From positions 1 to 25,670 of the IMG/VR virus record IMGVR_UViG_3300027749_000447: a DNA stretch of 25,670 nucleotides; one strand, written 5' to 3'. The translations under genes were made by a program, and so were the position numbers. Source of the stretch: a virus. The notes beneath the pieces were generated by a model. It was not told the DNA's origin and did no database searches. It worked only from the letters and a program-made list of their open reading frames with translations. The first letter of the stretch is position 1; each line of letters opens with the position of its first letter. Below are positions 1-7,724 of this stretch, piece by piece.

Positions 1-33
1 AAGCGGGAAGCACAAAAGGCCAAGAAAAAGTGA
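1..33 (+). CDS. 3' end of an unidentified upstream gene (partial)
   Basis: The first 33 bases read without interruption in frame 1 as ten lysine- and arginine-rich residues (KREAQKAKKK) followed by TGA. The TGA overlaps the GTG start of the next gene by four bases (GTGA). This is the typical translational-coupling arrangement of phage operons, so it is probably the basic C-terminus of a real gene that begins outside the window. Its function cannot be judged from ten residues. Confidence 0.55.
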   Translation, partial: KREAQKAKKK

Positions 34-1175
34 AAATCACCCAAAAAAAGGTCACAGAACTAATCCCTTATGTAAACAACAGCCGCACCCACTCTGACGA
101 ACAGGTGGCACAGATCGCGGCAAGCATTAAGGAATTTGGCTGGACTAACCCGATATTGGTGGATGGGACAAACGGAATCATTGCAGGGCATGGCAGGCTA
201 TTAGCCGCCCGCAAGTTAGGCTACAAGGAAGTTCCCACCATAGAACTGGCAGACTTGACCGAAACCCAAAAGAAGGCGTATATCATTGCCGACAACCGCC
301 TGGCGCTTAACGCTGGGTGGGACAATGAGATGCTGACCATTGAGTTAAACGACTTGCTGGCAGACGGTTTTGCGCTCGAGATGCTGGGTTTTGACCCAAA
401 AGAGTTAGCCGCCTTGCTCGAGCCCGAGGTAATTGAGGGTTTGACGGACGAGGATGCCGTACCCGAAGTACCCGAAGAACCGACAACCAAATTGGGTGAC
501 GTATATCAGTTAGGCAACCACAGGCTAATGTGCGGGGATAGCAATAGTGTAAATAATCTTGATAAGTTGCTTGATGGCACATATCCAAATGCAATAGTTA
601 CAGACCCACCTTATGGTATTGGAATAGATGGGCAAAAAAAATCAATAAATGCTAATCCAAAGCACAATAGAAAATTTCATGAAAAGAAAAATTGGGATTC
701 TGAACGTCCTGATGCTGGAATTTTTAATTGGATTGTTGGGATAAATGTTCCAACTGTAATCTGGGGAGGTAATTATTTTGCAGATTTACTGCCTGTTTCT
801 AGGGGATGGTTGTATTGGAACAAAGGTCAAGATGGTTTAACTATGTCTGATGGTGAACTTGCTTGGACTACAGAAGATAAACCTTTAAGAAGCAAAACAA
901 TAAATCGTGGAAAATTGAGAGGAAGTGTTCATCCAACACAAAAGCCTGTTGAAATTATGGATTTTTCAATTAAATATTTAAAAGTTTCTGAAAAAGGCGC
1001 TGTGCTTGATTTGTTTGCTGGTAGCGGTACAACTGCAATTGCTTGCGAAAAAAACAAAATGCGGTCTTATTTAATGGAACAAGACCCTGGTTATTGCGAT
1101 GCAATAGTAAAGCGTTGGGAAGATTTCACCGGCAAAAAAGCCGTTTTATTGACAGAATCTGCCGAACTTGCTTAA
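30..1175 (+). CDS. ParB-like domain fused to N6-adenine DNA methyltransferase
   Basis: This 381-aa protein has two parts. Residues about 1-100 form a ParB/Sulfiredoxin-like domain with the hallmark GHGR at 53-56. Residues about 155-381 form an S-adenosylmethionine-dependent DNA methyltransferase. The catalytic DPPY (192-195) precedes HPTQKP (301-306) and the SAM-binding FAGSGTT (329-335). That order is the beta-class arrangement, and DPPY favours N6-adenine as target. No restriction gene is visible nearby, so it looks like an orphan phage methylase, which could protect phage DNA or mark a packaging site (inference). The start is GTG, coupled to the preceding stop. Base composition changes abruptly inside the gene: I count about 57% G+C at 421-480 and about 35% at 601-660, returning to the higher level near 1120. 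The methylase half therefore looks like a swapped-in module. Confidence 0.9.
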   Translation: MKITQKKVTELIPYVNNSRTHSDEQVAQIAASIKEFGWTNPILVDGTNGIIAGHGRLLAARKLGYKEVPTIELADLTETQKKAYIIADNRLALNAGWDNEMLTIELNDLLADGFALEMLGFDPKELAALLEPEVIEGLTDEDAVPEVPEEPTTKLGDVYQLGNHRLMCGDSNSVNNLDKLLDGTYPNAIVTDPPYGIGIDGQKKSINANPKHNRKFHEKKNWDSERPDAGIFNWIVGINVPTVIWGGNYFADLLPVSRGWLYWNKGQDGLTMSDGELAWTTEDKPLRSKTINRGKLRGSVHPTQKPVEIMDFSIKYLKVSEKGAVLDLFAGSGTTAIACEKNKMRSYLMEQDPGYCDAIVKRWEDFTGKKAVLLTESAELA

Positions 1176-1178
1176 AAT
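1149..1178 (+). promoter_or_regulatory. Candidate sigma70 promoter for the packaging/head operon
   Basis: A perfect -35 box TTGACA (1149-1154) is followed after 18 nt by TAAAAT (1173-1178), which matches five of six -10 positions. Transcription would start near 1185, about 17 nt before the ATG of the small terminase candidate. The boxes lie in the last codons and stop of the methylase gene, which is AT-rich, so a chance match is possible. The fit in both boxes, the position directly ahead of the terminase gene and the overlapping palindrome support it. Confidence 0.5.
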
Positions 1179-1190
1179 TTAAGCGAGTTC
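1164..1190. promoter_or_regulatory. 27-nt near-perfect palindrome over the methylase stop and the -10 box
   Basis: The left arm 1164-1176 and right arm 1178-1190 are 13 nt each around a single central A. Twelve pairs are Watson-Crick and one (1169 with 1185) is T-G. As RNA it would fold into a 12-bp stem with a 3-nt loop, but no T-tract follows, so it is a poor intrinsic terminator. As DNA it is a good dyad for a dimeric regulator overlapping the candidate -10 box. It also contains the TAA stop of the methylase gene. The dyad is visible in the sequence; its role is inferred. Confidence 0.6.
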
Positions 1191-1201
1191 CCCTTTATAA
1201 A

Positions 1202-1552
1202 ATGCCAGTAATACCCCAAAAGGCCCATGAGCCGACTGACGAAGCCCGCCGTTTGGTTGAATCCAGCAGCGGTTTAGGCTTGCCGCACGAGCAAATTGGC
1301 ATTCTTGTGGGAATAGACGACAAGACGCTGCGCAAGTATTACCGGCACGAATTAGACATGGGTAAGGCTAAAGCCAACGGACAGATCGCCAAAACGCTGT
1401 ATTCCAAGGCTATATCGGGCGACACAACCAGCCTGATATGGTGGACAAAGGCTCAAATGCGCTGGTCTGAGACGGTTAAACAAGAGTTGACCGGCGCTGA
1501 CGGTGAGCCGCTACAAGGCATCCAGGTGTCATTTGTAAAGCCGAATGAGTGA
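1202..1552 (+). CDS. Probable terminase small subunit / packaging DNA-binding protein
   Basis: This 116-aa protein lies directly upstream of the large terminase gene and overlaps it by 8 nt. Residues about 14-55 look like a helix-turn-helix segment that scores IGILVGIDDKTLRKYY as a recognition region. The rest is helical and ends in a short polar tail. Position, size and an N-terminal HTH fit a small terminase subunit, which would recognise the packaging site and hand DNA to the large subunit. The ATG at 1202 is preferred. The reading frame stays open upstream to 1043, but that part lies inside the methylase gene and has no plausible homology. No clear Shine-Dalgarno precedes 1202, so if the promoter at 1149-1178 is real the leader would be very short. 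An alternative is a related DNA-binding protein that is not the true small subunit. Confidence 0.7.
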   Translation: MPVIPQKAHEPTDEARRLVESSSGLGLPHEQIGILVGIDDKTLRKYYRHELDMGKAKANGQIAKTLYSKAISGDTTSLIWWTKAQMRWSETVKQELTGADGEPLQGIQVSFVKPNE

Positions 1553-2825
1553 AGTTCAAGGCCAAATAGCCAACGCGCAGTTTCCGCAAAAACTGCAATG
1601 CCTGTTTCAGCCTGAGAAGCAAAGATACCGAATTTTGTACGGTGGACGGGGCGGGGCAAAGTCGTGGGGAGTAGCCAGGGCATTGCTTATCAAAGGCGCT
1701 CAAAGGCCATTACGCATACTTTGCGCCCGTGAGTTTCAGACTTCAATCAGGGATTCCGTCCACAAACTGCTGTGCGACCAGATCATTGACTTACGGCTTG
1801 ACGGGTTCTATGAGATTACCCAAAACAGTCTACGGGGCAAAAACGGCACTGAATTCTCTTTTGTTGGCCTCAAGAACAACGTAGCCAACGTCAAATCTTA
1901 CGAAGGCGTGGACATTTGCTGGGTAGAGGAAGCCCAAACAACCAGCCGGTTGTCGTGGAATGTCTTAATTCCCACGATTCGTAAGCAGGATTCCGAGATA
2001 TGGGTTACGTTCAACCCTGAGTTGGAGACGGATGAGACATATCAGCGGTTTGTAATCCACCCGCCTGGTAATTCCGTGGTGCAGAAAATCAACTGGTCTG
2101 ACAACCCTTGGTTTCCAGAAACGCTGGAGTTGGAGAAGAATTCCCTACGGGACAGGGACATTGAATCGTATAACACCGTTTGGGAGGGAATCTGCCGCCA
2201 AACCGTGGATGGGGCAGTATTTGCCCGAGAAATGCAGATGGCAGACCTTGAGGAACGCATCACCAAGGTGGCCTACGATGCCACAAAACCTGTTCATGCG
2301 GTGTTTGACTTGGGCTGGTCGGATGCTACGGCGATATGGTTTGTCCAGTTCATCGGCATGGAAACCCGCCTGATTCGTTACTATGAGGACAGCCAAAGGA
2401 CGATTTCGGATTACTTAGCCAAGATGCAAACCTATGGTTATGTCTACGATACACTTTGGCTACCACACGATGCAGAGAACAAAACCCTTGCAGCGGCTGG
2501 CCGTTCCATTGACCAAATTGTGCGGGCGGCAGGCTACAAAACCAAAATTATCCCAAGAACGCCAATTCCTGATAGTATTAACGCCGCAAGGACGCTTTTT
2601 AGGAATTGCTGGTTTGATAGGGAAAACTGTGCGGATGGGCTACAATGTTTGAGACATTATCGGTTTGACGTTGACCCTGACACTAAGTTGTTCAGCAAAA
2701 ACCCACTCCATGACGAATATTCGCATGGTGCGGATGCGTTCAGAATGTTGGGGCTGGTTGTCAATGAGCCAAAGAAACGGGTAGCGAAACCGACCTACAA
2801 CGCACCACAGTCATGGATGGCCTAA
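1545..2825 (+). CDS. terL: Terminase large subunit (ATPase and nuclease)
   Basis: This 426-aa motor protein packages DNA through the portal and cuts the concatemer. The N-terminal ATPase shows Walker A GGRGGAKS (33-40) and a Walker B-like strand ICWVEEA (124-130) with the catalytic acidic pair. The C-terminal RNase H-like nuclease carries acidic residues in FDLGWSD (D255), LPHDAEN (D309) and HGADAFR (D397), spaced as expected for metal binding. The architecture matches the Terminase_3 group of large subunits. The start overlaps the small-subunit gene by 8 nt, and the stop TAA is followed immediately by the portal ATG. The length is normal and no key residue is missing. Confidence 0.96.
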   Translation: MSEVQGQIANAQFPQKLQCLFQPEKQRYRILYGGRGGAKSWGVARALLIKGAQRPLRILCAREFQTSIRDSVHKLLCDQIIDLRLDGFYEITQNSLRGKNGTEFSFVGLKNNVANVKSYEGVDICWVEEAQTTSRLSWNVLIPTIRKQDSEIWVTFNPELETDETYQRFVIHPPGNSVVQKINWSDNPWFPETLELEKNSLRDRDIESYNTVWEGICRQTVDGAVFAREMQMADLEERITKVAYDATKPVHAVFDLGWSDATAIWFVQFIGMETRLIRYYEDSQRTISDYLAKMQTYGYVYDTLWLPHDAENKTLAAAGRSIDQIVRAAGYKTKIIPRTPIPDSINAARTLFRNCWFDRENCADGLQCLRHYRFDVDPDTKLFSKNPLHDEYSHGADAFRMLGLVVNEPKKRVAKPTYNAPQSWMA

Positions 2826-4910
2826 ATGGATATTGACCCAATTATTGACGAAGCAATTGACTTTCTCAAACTCTGCAACGATGCAGACACGATGAATCGC
2901 CAAGAAGGTTTGGAGGATTTAAAGTTTGTCAATGGCGACCAATGGCCCGTTGAACTGCAAAACTCCCGTAACCTTGAATCGCGCCCTGTCCTGACGATTA
3001 ACAAGTTGGACGGATATTGCCGCCAAGTTACCAATCAGCAGCGCCAGCAACGTCCCCGCATCAAAGTTCACGCCACAAACAACGAAGCGGACGTAAAAAC
3101 CGCAGACGTAATTGAAGGAATGTGCCGGCATATTGAGGTCAATTCCAACGCTGACAACGCCTACGATACCGCTTTTGACCATGCCGTGCGGATGGGTTGG
3201 GGCTTTTGGCGGGTAACAACCGATTACGTCAAAGAAGATTCGTTTGATCAGGAAATCTACATTGACGCAATTCCAAACCCTTTTACCGTTTACTTTGACC
3301 CCAATTCCGAGCGTGTAGATGGTTCGGATGCAGAGCGCTGCCTCATCACCACCATGATGAGCAAGGCCAAGTTCCGCAAACTTTACCCCGACAATGATGA
3401 TGGAACATCCTTTACCCAACGTGGCACGGGTGATAGTCAATCCGAATGGATTACCAAGGAAGATATACGCATTGCCGAGTATTTCTACGTTAAACGGGAA
3501 TCGGCAACCCTGTACCAATTGAGCGATGGAACGTCCAAATTCTCCGAGGGTAAGGACTTTAAAGCGCGTCTTGAGGCGGCAGGCATTCAGATCATCGGTG
3601 AGCGCAAATCCTTCAAGCGGACAATCAAGTGGAAGAAACTTACTGCAATGGAGGTGATTGAGGAACGCGATTGGCCTGGCACTTATATCCCTGTTGTCCC
3701 CGTTTACGGGCGGCACGTTGTCATTGGTGACAAGCGCCACAAGTTTGGCATGGTGCGTCACGCCAAGGATGCCCAGCGGATGTACAACTTCTGGCAGACC
3801 ACCATTACAGAATCGGTTGCGCTGGCTCCCAAAGCCAAATGGATCATGGCAGAAGGCCAAGATGAGGGTCACGAAAGCGAATGGGCAGCGGCTAACGTTA
3901 AGTCATTCCCACTGCTGCGCTACAAGCAAACCGACATTGATGGAAATACCGCACCGCCTCCGCAACGCCTCCAGCCCGAGCCACCGCCTTCCGGTGTCAT
4001 GGCAGCAGCGGCAGGGATAAACACCGACATTGCCACTCTGATGGGCATTTATGACCCGTCACAGCAGATGCCAGGCAATATCTCAGGTAAAGCGCTAAAT
4101 GGGCAGCAGCAACAGGTCGACCTGACAAACTTTGACTTTTACGACAACCTTACAAAGTCAATTGCTCAGACCGGAAAGATCATTCTTGATTTAATTCCCC
4201 ATATTTACGACTCCCAGCGAGTAATGCGGATCATTGGGGCAGACGGAAAGCCTGATTTGGTCAACATTAACCAGCCGAGCCAAGACGATCAAGGCGTGTA
4301 TAAGGTCATGCACGACATGACGGTTGGGCAGTACGATGTGGTAATGGATACCGGCCCAGGCTTCAATTCCAAGCGCCAAGCGGCAGTTGAGGCAATGATG
4401 CCATTGGTAAACGGCAACCCCGAACTGTTTAAAGTTGCGGGCGACTTGGTGTTCCGAAACATGGATTTCCCTGGCGCAGAGGTCATTGCCGACCGTCTTG
4501 CCGCTTCCAATCCCATGTCGCAGATTGACGATAAATCGCCTGTTCCGCCCCAAGTTCAGATGCAACTCAAGGCAAATCAGGCCCAAATGCAGCAAATGCA
4601 GCAACAATTGCAGCAAATGCAGATGGTCATTAAGCAGCGTCAGGACATTGAACAGGTCAAGCAGGATGCCGAGACCAAGCGCGTGTTGATTAAAGAAACC
4701 AACCGCGCCCACGACATTGAACTGAAAAACGCCGAGCGCCACAAGGAAATGGAACTCAAGGTCGAGACAACGGCCCACGATACTGTGCTGAAAACCCAAA
4801 CCCAACTGGAAATTGAGCGCATGAAGGGTGAAATTGCCCTCATGCTGGCCCATTTGGACAAGGCAGCGGCCCATGCGGCATCGTTGGAAACAACTGAGCG
4901 CGCAATATAG
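2826..4910 (+). CDS. Portal protein, P22 gp1-like
   Basis: This 694-aa protein is the dodecameric ring at the capsid vertex through which DNA enters and leaves. The N-terminal half reads like the P22-type portal family, with conserved FVNGDQWP near residue 40, a TNQQRQQRP stretch near 75 and YFDPNSERVDGSDAERC around 160. The middle holds the wing and stem. From about residue 575 the chain becomes glutamine- and methionine-rich and then a long charged helix to the end, which probably forms the barrel (crown) inside the capsid, as in P22. It begins directly after the terminase stop (TAAATG) with no clear Shine-Dalgarno, so translation is probably coupled. P22 portal is 725 aa, so the size fits. 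The long open frames on the opposite strand are composition shadows. Confidence 0.95.
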   Translation: MDIDPIIDEAIDFLKLCNDADTMNRQEGLEDLKFVNGDQWPVELQNSRNLESRPVLTINKLDGYCRQVTNQQRQQRPRIKVHATNNEADVKTADVIEGMCRHIEVNSNADNAYDTAFDHAVRMGWGFWRVTTDYVKEDSFDQEIYIDAIPNPFTVYFDPNSERVDGSDAERCLITTMMSKAKFRKLYPDNDDGTSFTQRGTGDSQSEWITKEDIRIAEYFYVKRESATLYQLSDGTSKFSEGKDFKARLEAAGIQIIGERKSFKRTIKWKKLTAMEVIEERDWPGTYIPVVPVYGRHVVIGDKRHKFGMVRHAKDAQRMYNFWQTTITESVALAPKAKWIMAEGQDEGHESEWAAANVKSFPLLRYKQTDIDGNTAPPPQRLQPEPPPSGVMAAAAGINTDIATLMGIYDPSQQMPGNISGKALNGQQQQVDLTNFDFYDNLTKSIAQTGKIILDLIPHIYDSQRVMRIIGADGKPDLVNINQPSQDDQGVYKVMHDMTVGQYDVVMDTGPGFNSKRQAAVEAMMPLVNGNPELFKVAGDLVFRNMDFPGAEVIADRLAASNPMSQIDDKSPVPPQVQMQLKANQAQMQQMQQQLQQMQMVIKQRQDIEQVKQDAETKRVLIKETNRAHDIELKNAERHKEMELKVETTAHDTVLKTQTQLEIERMKGEIALMLAHLDKAAAHAASLETTERAI

Positions 4911-4913
4911 ATT

Positions 4914-4929
4914 TGTGGTATAAACCACA
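4914..4929 (+). other. Small hairpin in the portal-scaffold gap
   Basis: In the 67-nt gap after the portal stop, TGTGGT (4914-4919) and ACCACA (4924-4929) form a perfect 6-bp inverted repeat with a 4-nt loop. A weaker 5-bp repeat (AACCT/AGGTT) follows at about 4931-4949. No T-tract is present, so it is not an obvious terminator. It could be an RNA-processing or stability element, or chance. Confidence 0.35.
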
Positions 4930-4977
4930 CAACCTTACCAGTTAGGTTTCAACTGGGCAAAAATCTTGAGGAAACTC

Positions 4978-5883
4978 ATGTCAAGTGAAAAAGAAGCCGG
5001 TCAAGTATTGACTAGCGAGAATGCAGCGGAATTTTATGCAAACCGAATGGGTTTAGCCGATCAAGCGCCTGCCGAGGCTGAAGTTGAGGATTCTCCTTCA
5101 GAGCCGACAGATAACGAGGATCGGAGTGAATCAGGAGCAGAAAAGGAAGCGAAACCGACAGAGGAACGGAAACAAAATCCGAAACTTGAAAAGAGGTTTT
5201 CAGAGATAACCAAGCAGCGCGAACAGGCCCGTCAAGAAGCGGCGCAGGAACGTGAGGCAAGGCAAAAGCTGGAAGCTGAGTTAGCGGCAGTACGTCAGCA
5301 GCAACAACCCCAACAGGTTAAAAATGCAGACGTAAAGCCTCAACCGAGTCAATTTACGGATGCTTTTGAATACGCAGAAGCATTGGCAGATTGGTCGGCT
5401 GAGCAGGCATTGGTTAGGCGAGATCGTGAAGATGTGGAGCGCAGGGCAGACGAAGCGCGGCAGAAAGTAATTTCTACCTGGGCGCAGAAGGTTGCAACAG
5501 CGAAGGCCGATATTCCCGATTTTGATGACATGGTGGCCTCAAGTGGTGTTGCGGTAAGCGACCCCATTCGTGATGCCATTTTGGAGAGTGACGTAGGCCC
5601 ACAAATCCTATACCACTTAGCCAAAGAGGACGATCTTGCAAAGAAGATTGCCTCAATGTCGCCATTTGCTGCGCTACGCGAGATTGGAAAGTTGGAAGCG
5701 AAGTTTGAGAAGCAACCTGAGACTAAGCAAAGTAATCCTGTCGGTAAAAGTAAAGCACCACCACCGATCAGCCCGATTCGGAATGCTGGAAACGCTAACC
5801 AAGTAGAAATTGGCTCAGACGGTCAGTTTCACGGAAGTTACCAAGCGTGGAAAGCGGCTCGCAAGGCTGGTCGAATTCGATAG
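4978..5883 (+). CDS. Scaffolding protein
   Basis: This 301-aa protein lies between the portal and coat genes, the usual place for a P22-type scaffold, which guides coat assembly into a procapsid and then leaves. The composition fits: a very acidic N-terminal stretch (about residues 20-60), a charged coiled coil (about 65-110, rich in E, R, Q and A), and a short basic C-terminus ending in SYQAWKAARKAGRIR. That tail recalls the basic helix-turn-helix by which P22 scaffold binds coat. The ATG at 4978 is chosen because GAGGA (4968-4972) sits at correct spacing; the frame also opens with TTG at 4966, inside that ribosome-binding site. Sequence similarity to known scaffolds is not obvious by eye, so the call rests on position and composition. 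Confidence 0.85.
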   Translation: MSSEKEAGQVLTSENAAEFYANRMGLADQAPAEAEVEDSPSEPTDNEDRSESGAEKEAKPTEERKQNPKLEKRFSEITKQREQARQEAAQEREARQKLEAELAAVRQQQQPQQVKNADVKPQPSQFTDAFEYAEALADWSAEQALVRRDREDVERRADEARQKVISTWAQKVATAKADIPDFDDMVASSGVAVSDPIRDAILESDVGPQILYHLAKEDDLAKKIASMSPFAALREIGKLEAKFEKQPETKQSNPVGKSKAPPPISPIRNAGNANQVEIGSDGQFHGSYQAWKAARKAGRIR

Positions 5884-7137: not shown

Positions 7138-7144
7138 TTGGATA

Positions 7145-7164
7145 GGGGGGGAGAAATCCTCCCC
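7145..7164 (+). other. GNRA-capped hairpin after the coat gene
   Basis: An 8-bp stem (7145-7152 with 7157-7164, seven G-C/A-T pairs plus one G-U) is closed by a GAAA tetraloop. A run of seven T occurs only 10 nt downstream (7175-7181), too far for a standard intrinsic terminator. The next gene's ribosome-binding site follows directly. It may be a weak terminator or a 3' stabiliser of the coat transcript. Confidence 0.55.
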
Positions 7165-7194
7165 GTTCATTAACTTTTTTTAAGGAAACTTATC

Positions 7195-7638: not shown

Positions 7639-7658
7639 ACTGATGTAAAAAGAAAGAG

Positions 7659-7688
7659 GGCCATCTCTGCAAGGGGGTGGCCTTTTTT
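7659..7688 (+). terminator. Intrinsic (Rho-independent) terminator
   Basis: GGCCATC (7659-7665) pairs with GGTGGCC (7676-7682) as a 7-bp stem with one G-U pair and a 10-nt loop. It is followed at once by six T (7683-7688) and preceded by an A-rich run. This is a textbook intrinsic terminator, 21 nt after the stop of the putative decoration gene and inside an otherwise continuous late operon. Confidence 0.88.
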
Positions 7689-7724
7689 CGTTACAATTTA
7701 TCTACCTTTTCAAAGGAAATCAAA

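Follow-up and report, generated by a model that had tools for sequence, protein, structure and literature searches.

In SPP1, a phage of Bacillus subtilis, the packaging site pac overlaps the late promoters PL1 and PL2, the ribosome binding site and the 5′ part of gene 1, that is terS, which codes for the small terminase subunit, and an early phage factor is required for late transcription (PMC6316719). To judge from the title of a 1997 paper cited in the same article (PMC6316719), the SPP1 terminase represses its own synthesis. In P22 the pac site lies inside terS, which is gene 3 of that phage (PMC9611059). Here we describe a locus in which a promoter stands immediately before terS, as in SPP1, together with packaging genes of the headful type.

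The sequence analysed, hereafter the window, was a virus record of 25,670 nt from a freshwater phage belonging to an uncultured group with a P22-like portal. The features of the region around terS are collected in Table 1. From comparison with related phages we consider, with a probability of roughly 0.78, that a sigma-70-type promoter within the end of the methylase gene drives terS-terL, that the dyad overlapping this promoter is incidental, and that the leader and about 28 codons of terS constitute a separate cis element.

Table 1. Coordinates of the features of the terS region in the window
Feature	Position	Strand	Remarks
ParB_N + N6/N4 DNA methyltransferase gene	30..1175	+	open at its 5′ end in this window; stop codon TAA (1173-1175) inside the dyad
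-35 element TTGACA	1149..1154	+	inside methylase Leu-Thr codons; kept in non-methylase and non-coding contexts
Dyad, 13+1+13	1164..1190	.	12/13 pairs; unconserved in relatives
-10 element TAAAAT	1173..1178	+	TTAAAT at spacing 17 in most relatives
Conserved terS leader CGAGTTCCCCTTTATAAA	1184..1201	+	no Shine-Dalgarno; 72/78 motif matches directly before terS
Predicted transcription start	1186	+	A of AGTTCCCC, 8 nt past the -10 element; inferred from the -10 position
terS, small terminase subunit	1202..1552	+	PHROG 309; ATG at 1202
terS codons 2-28	1205..1285	+	synonymous variation suppressed; the cis element may continue here
terL, large terminase subunit	1545..2825	+	Terminase_3; start overlaps terS stop
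P22-like portal protein	2826..4910	+	–

Scans of the window with Rfam and for tRNAs gave no matches, and a search by sequence for relatives of TerS in the PDB found none. The methyltransferase half of the first gene (approximately 500-1175) is AT-rich, with a GC content of about 0.35 against about 0.50 in the flanking regions, which suggests a recent exchange of modules within the fused ParB-methylase gene. Short inverted repeats (GTGGTATAAACCAC; CCAGTTAGGTTTCAACTGG) were seen at 4905-4980, before the head scaffolding gene, and similar hairpins occur in related loci; the TTG at 4966 listed as the start of this gene is probably wrong and the ATG at 4978 right. Terminator-like hairpins were present at 7143-7165 (GGGGGGGAGAAATCCTCCCC), behind a gene whose last position is 7137, and at 7655-7690, after 7638, where GGCCATC...GGTGGCC is followed by a T tract.

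As relatives we considered about 240 loci, most of them carrying a TerS relative, obtained by searches with TerL and TerS and by a scan of viral contigs for the leader motif.

The preliminary description of this DNA had reported a TTGACA-N18-TAAAAT promoter ahead of the packaging genes, and the sequence is present as described, with 11 of 12 matches to the consensus and with the hexamers separated by a distance within the 16-18 nt of the sigma-70 type; its -10 element ends 23 nt before the ATG of terS, not 24 nt as stated there. Since a TTGACA-N16-19-TANNNT pattern is expected 0.9 times by chance in a window of 25.7 kb and was found once, the exact match of the hexamers has no significance by itself. 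When scored with a weight matrix, the site ranked among the best 0.12% of 65-nt windows, and 86% of the relatives with a methylase upstream fell in the top 5%. Most relatives have a weak -10 hexamer, TTAAAT, lacking A at the second position. With either form of the hexamer, relatives usually have 7 nt between the -10 element and AGTTCCCC. The sequence 3′ of the predicted start reads CGAGTTCCCCTNTATAAA(AG)ATG.

Among methylase-bearing phages TTGACA before terS is almost constant. It was found in 54 of the 72 distinct loci with a methylase upstream and, with the same filter, in 7 of the 26 loci with another upstream sequence, although one of these seven, L104, does have a methylase tail, which escaped the filter. 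At this point the methylase gene has two neighbouring Leu codons, the second of which supplies TTG, the first half of the -35 element. This second codon reads TTG in 78/78 relatives and never changed on a tree of terS, whereas the adjacent Leu codon underwent 22 synonymous changes (TTG, TTA, CTT, CTG, CTA) on the same tree; the tree is possibly distorted by recombination, the effect of which would be equal for both codons. Most other variable codons had 7-19 changes, and the Thr codon of the -35 element (ACA) had 6, below most of them. The hexamer is thus conserved beyond coding need, given the invariant TTG and its retention in the non-coding DNA of two relatives, L172 and L195.

The slot before terS is exchanged in related phages, in which we observed an N6/N4 methylase, a Mom-family protein, a C5 methylase, a class I methyltransferase, a Tet/JBP-type oxygenase or a DUF968 protein (window 30-1175 and loci L010, L124, L128, L149, L222 and L195). 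A Mom-family protein (match to Pfam PF25680 with E about 1e-44) is encoded upstream in L010 and L124, and the upstream gene of L094 and L145 has the same C-terminal sequence; TTGACA and a T(T)AAA(A)T box are retained in all four. L172 and L195 have a gene for a DUF968-type protein in this place and a terL of another kind (as seen in L172 and in an overlapping frame of L195). The TTGACA-N18-TAAAAT of these two loci is non-coding and lies directly 3′ of a terminator-like hairpin with seven T's; transcription from upstream would therefore stop there, and the promoter is likely the source of terS transcription in both. These loci point to a promoter that is independent of the methylase and is kept when the upstream gene is replaced. 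The phages with a C5 methylase, a Tet/JBP-type oxygenase or a class I methyltransferase are without TTGACA, some of them with other promoter-like sequences, and both the phages with a C5 methylase upstream and one terS clade (TTGTTAGAATCC...GCTTAACGAG) keep the leader with no recognisable promoter. The promoter is therefore common, not universal.

The 27-nt palindrome that had been described over the -10 box was confirmed as GAACTTGCTTAAA-A-TTTAAGCGAGTTC, exactly at the position in Table 1, and it covers the methylase stop codon as had been said. Its thirteenth pair is a T opposite a G, a U-G wobble in RNA and a mismatch in DNA. It is the sole dyad of at least 12/13 pairs (gap up to 10) in the window, the average of the shuffles being 0.28 per window, and such a dyad was contained in 0.8% of local 601-nt shuffles. 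The dyad is unusual locally and only mildly so across the whole window.

In the preliminary description this was the geometry of a repressed or autoregulated promoter, and comparison with relatives bears out the promoter half of that proposal and not the operator half. In an operator reading, the promoter would be blocked by a regulator bound to 1164-1190 as a dimer, which could be TerS, the methylase or a protein of the host. The dyad is properly placed for this, over the -10 element and the start, it has no equal in the window, and its core GCTTAAAATTTAAGC is kept in a subclade (10/73 distinct relatives); against this stands the behaviour of the pairing in related phages. We counted pairs with the right arm fixed and gaps of 0-6, and the median was 7/13 over 73 distinct relatives, a number that includes the sequence of the window itself. 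At least 11 pairs were present in only 4/73, 12 being reached solely in the window and 11 in three others, and three relatives with TerS 96-98% identical had 10/13. Conservation of the dyad in related phages had been proposed as a check, and many of them have the same methylase-terS-terL order and no dyad.

In 18 aligned close and middling relatives 75.0% of the dyad cells were paired, as against 74.3% in shuffles, and there was no excess of compensatory changes (one double change versus 0.3 expected, some slid controls being equal or higher). The pair at C1167 was absent from every relative aligned, and the DNA T-G mismatch was retained in 17 of the 18 sequences; in a Watson-Crick operator the retention of an inner mismatch of this kind would be unexpected. 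The palindrome is hence neither conserved nor compensated among the relatives. Its left arm is already accounted for as methylase codons (Glu-X-Ala) and the TAA stop, and its right arm is part of the conserved terS leader (CGAGTTCCCCTNTATAAAA). Second copies of the dyad or of the leader were not found in the window, in which half-sites with at most 2 mismatches numbered 9 versus 4.5 expected, two of the nine being the arms of the dyad themselves. As its pairing is not conserved, we rejected the dyad as an operator, a role that seems to us quite improbable; the dyad is not shared by related phages and, on this comparison, is probably not a docking site of a regulator.

The ParB-like domain of the methylase had also been suggested as a binder. 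Only an N-terminal ParB_N domain was matched in the methylase, with no complete ParB with a helix-turn-helix as would go with a parS site, and TTGACA persists in methylase-less phages; binding by the methylase is therefore unlikely. The small terminase may regulate its own synthesis, in which case it would act on the conserved leader and the beginning of terS and not on the palindrome.

We also considered the dyad as an RNA hairpin in read-through transcripts, acting as a terminator, an attenuator or a processing site. The plus strand does fold strongly here (-14.1 kcal/mol, z -7.0), the wobble giving 13 pairs, but the stem is AT-rich and is followed by CCCUUUAUAA (CCCTTTATAA) with no U tract, unlike an intrinsic terminator. 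We rejected this hairpin because no terminator was called and the pairing is unconserved in relatives, and we regard it as the least credible of the roles considered for the dyad.

The right arm of the dyad leads to the leader. The motif TTCCCCTNTATAAAANATG occurred in 78 viral contigs, the six occurrences other than those before terS being apparently unrelated, and the TTCCCC form of the leader was present in 161/176 loci with the same TerS type, a share that is inflated, as part of the set was found via the TTCCCC motif itself. The leader is retained where the upstream gene and even terL differ (L172 and L195), and it is missing from terL homologues with another TerS type. We saw no matching leader before the terS-like genes of the spring-water assemblies MW202867 and MW202613 or of two cultured phages that are more remote but have a TerS relative, Acinetobacter P711 and Pseudoalteromonas SL25. 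An upstream in-frame start of terS, by which the leader would be translated, was rejected: differences in length before the ATG (AAAATG, AAAGATG, AAAAGATG) shift the frame, so the leader is not coding. In one relative, L043, a deletion joins the -10 element directly to TTCCCC; with a start 7 nt downstream the terS transcript would therefore be almost leaderless.

The constraint continues into the gene. The ratio of observed to expected synonymous difference was 0.59 in terS codons 2-28 versus 0.85 in the rest of terS (Mann-Whitney P 5e-5), and it was 0.84 versus 0.89 for the start of terL and 0.93-0.95 for the start of the portal gene. No conserved RNA structure was found across the leader and the 5′ part of terS. 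A conserved stretch of non-coding and 5′ terS sequence tied to terS, and a promoter directly before this gene, are thus present here as in the SPP1 type of region, and a DNA-level element running from the promoter into terS would be the simplest reading of the leader and the codon constraint. The element may serve TerS recognition, packaging start or translation.

The first possibility to be weighed is that the promoter, the leader and the 5′ part of terS form a pac region recognised by TerS, which would start packaging there and repress the promoter of its own gene, an arrangement reported for gene 1 of SPP1. Drawn by analogy, it is a tentative proposal and falls short of being the likely one. 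It agrees with a leader that is confined to terS and moves with it, with the suppression of synonymous variation at the start of terS and not of terL or the portal gene in the absence of an RNA fold, and with the overlap of pac, promoters and 5′ gene 1 in SPP1 (PMC6316719); the P22-like portal and the circular complete relatives fit headful packaging. However, the ends of the few near-full-length contigs gave no common cut position, and codon constraint at the start of a gene can arise otherwise.

Such an origin could be translation, if the leader and the constrained codons were an A-rich initiation region without a Shine-Dalgarno sequence that keeps TerS low relative to TerL. We consider this somewhat doubtful. 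There is indeed no Shine-Dalgarno before terS, whereas AAGGA stands before several other genes of the window that have space for such a sequence; ATAAAA precedes the ATG, and the predicted leader is only 16 nt long. This would leave unexplained the invariant TTCCCC and a constraint reaching codon 28, and no conserved structure accompanies it. Still more speculative, and in our opinion unlikely, is a terS cassette made of the promoter, the leader without Shine-Dalgarno TTCCCCTNTATAAAA and the first 28 terS codons, which would be at once the late promoter and the packaging-start site of a large group of uncultured freshwater phages, be repressed by TerS and form the fixed border of the slot for modification genes, so that modification and packaging would be coupled.

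Returning to the sigma-70-type promoter with a separate cis element, we propose that the promoter lies where the upstream DNA-modification gene has its final codons and that the host RNA polymerase would start at about A1186, both the use of this polymerase and the exact start being inferred. The transcript would carry terS, terL, the portal gene and later genes, so that the promoter very probably switches on the DNA-packaging genes. The dyad would be a lineage-specific near-palindrome arising by chance where methylase codons and the stop meet the terS leader, and not itself regulatory. The leader and the first 28 or so codons would belong to terS as a separate cis element, into which, as a longer element, the promoter probably merges.

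The locus resembles SPP1 also in a conserved cis sequence by which the promoter is continued into 5′ terS. It differs in that both hexamers are sigma-70-like, whereas the -35 of SPP1 PL1 is atypical (PMC6316719), in the position of the promoter within the upstream modification gene and in the lack of a Shine-Dalgarno. With P22 it shares the type of portal and, as a candidate, a link between packaging start and terS sequence, but its strongest conservation is in the leader and the first codons, unlike a pac within the gene. With TTGACA, a spacing of 17-18 nt, TAAAAT or TTAAAT and a start near the next gene it is like ordinary sigma-70 promoters that lie at the 3′ end of the preceding phage gene; unlike those, it is retained when Mom-type or other genes replace that gene.

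The analysis provides uncultured freshwater phages of the P22 portal type with a concrete late promoter and with a candidate for the element at which packaging starts, and it illustrates that a merely operator-like palindrome can be told apart from a real promoter by comparison of relatives. Should TerS recognise the leader as a pac, the SPP1 arrangement would be extended to phages of quite different hosts.
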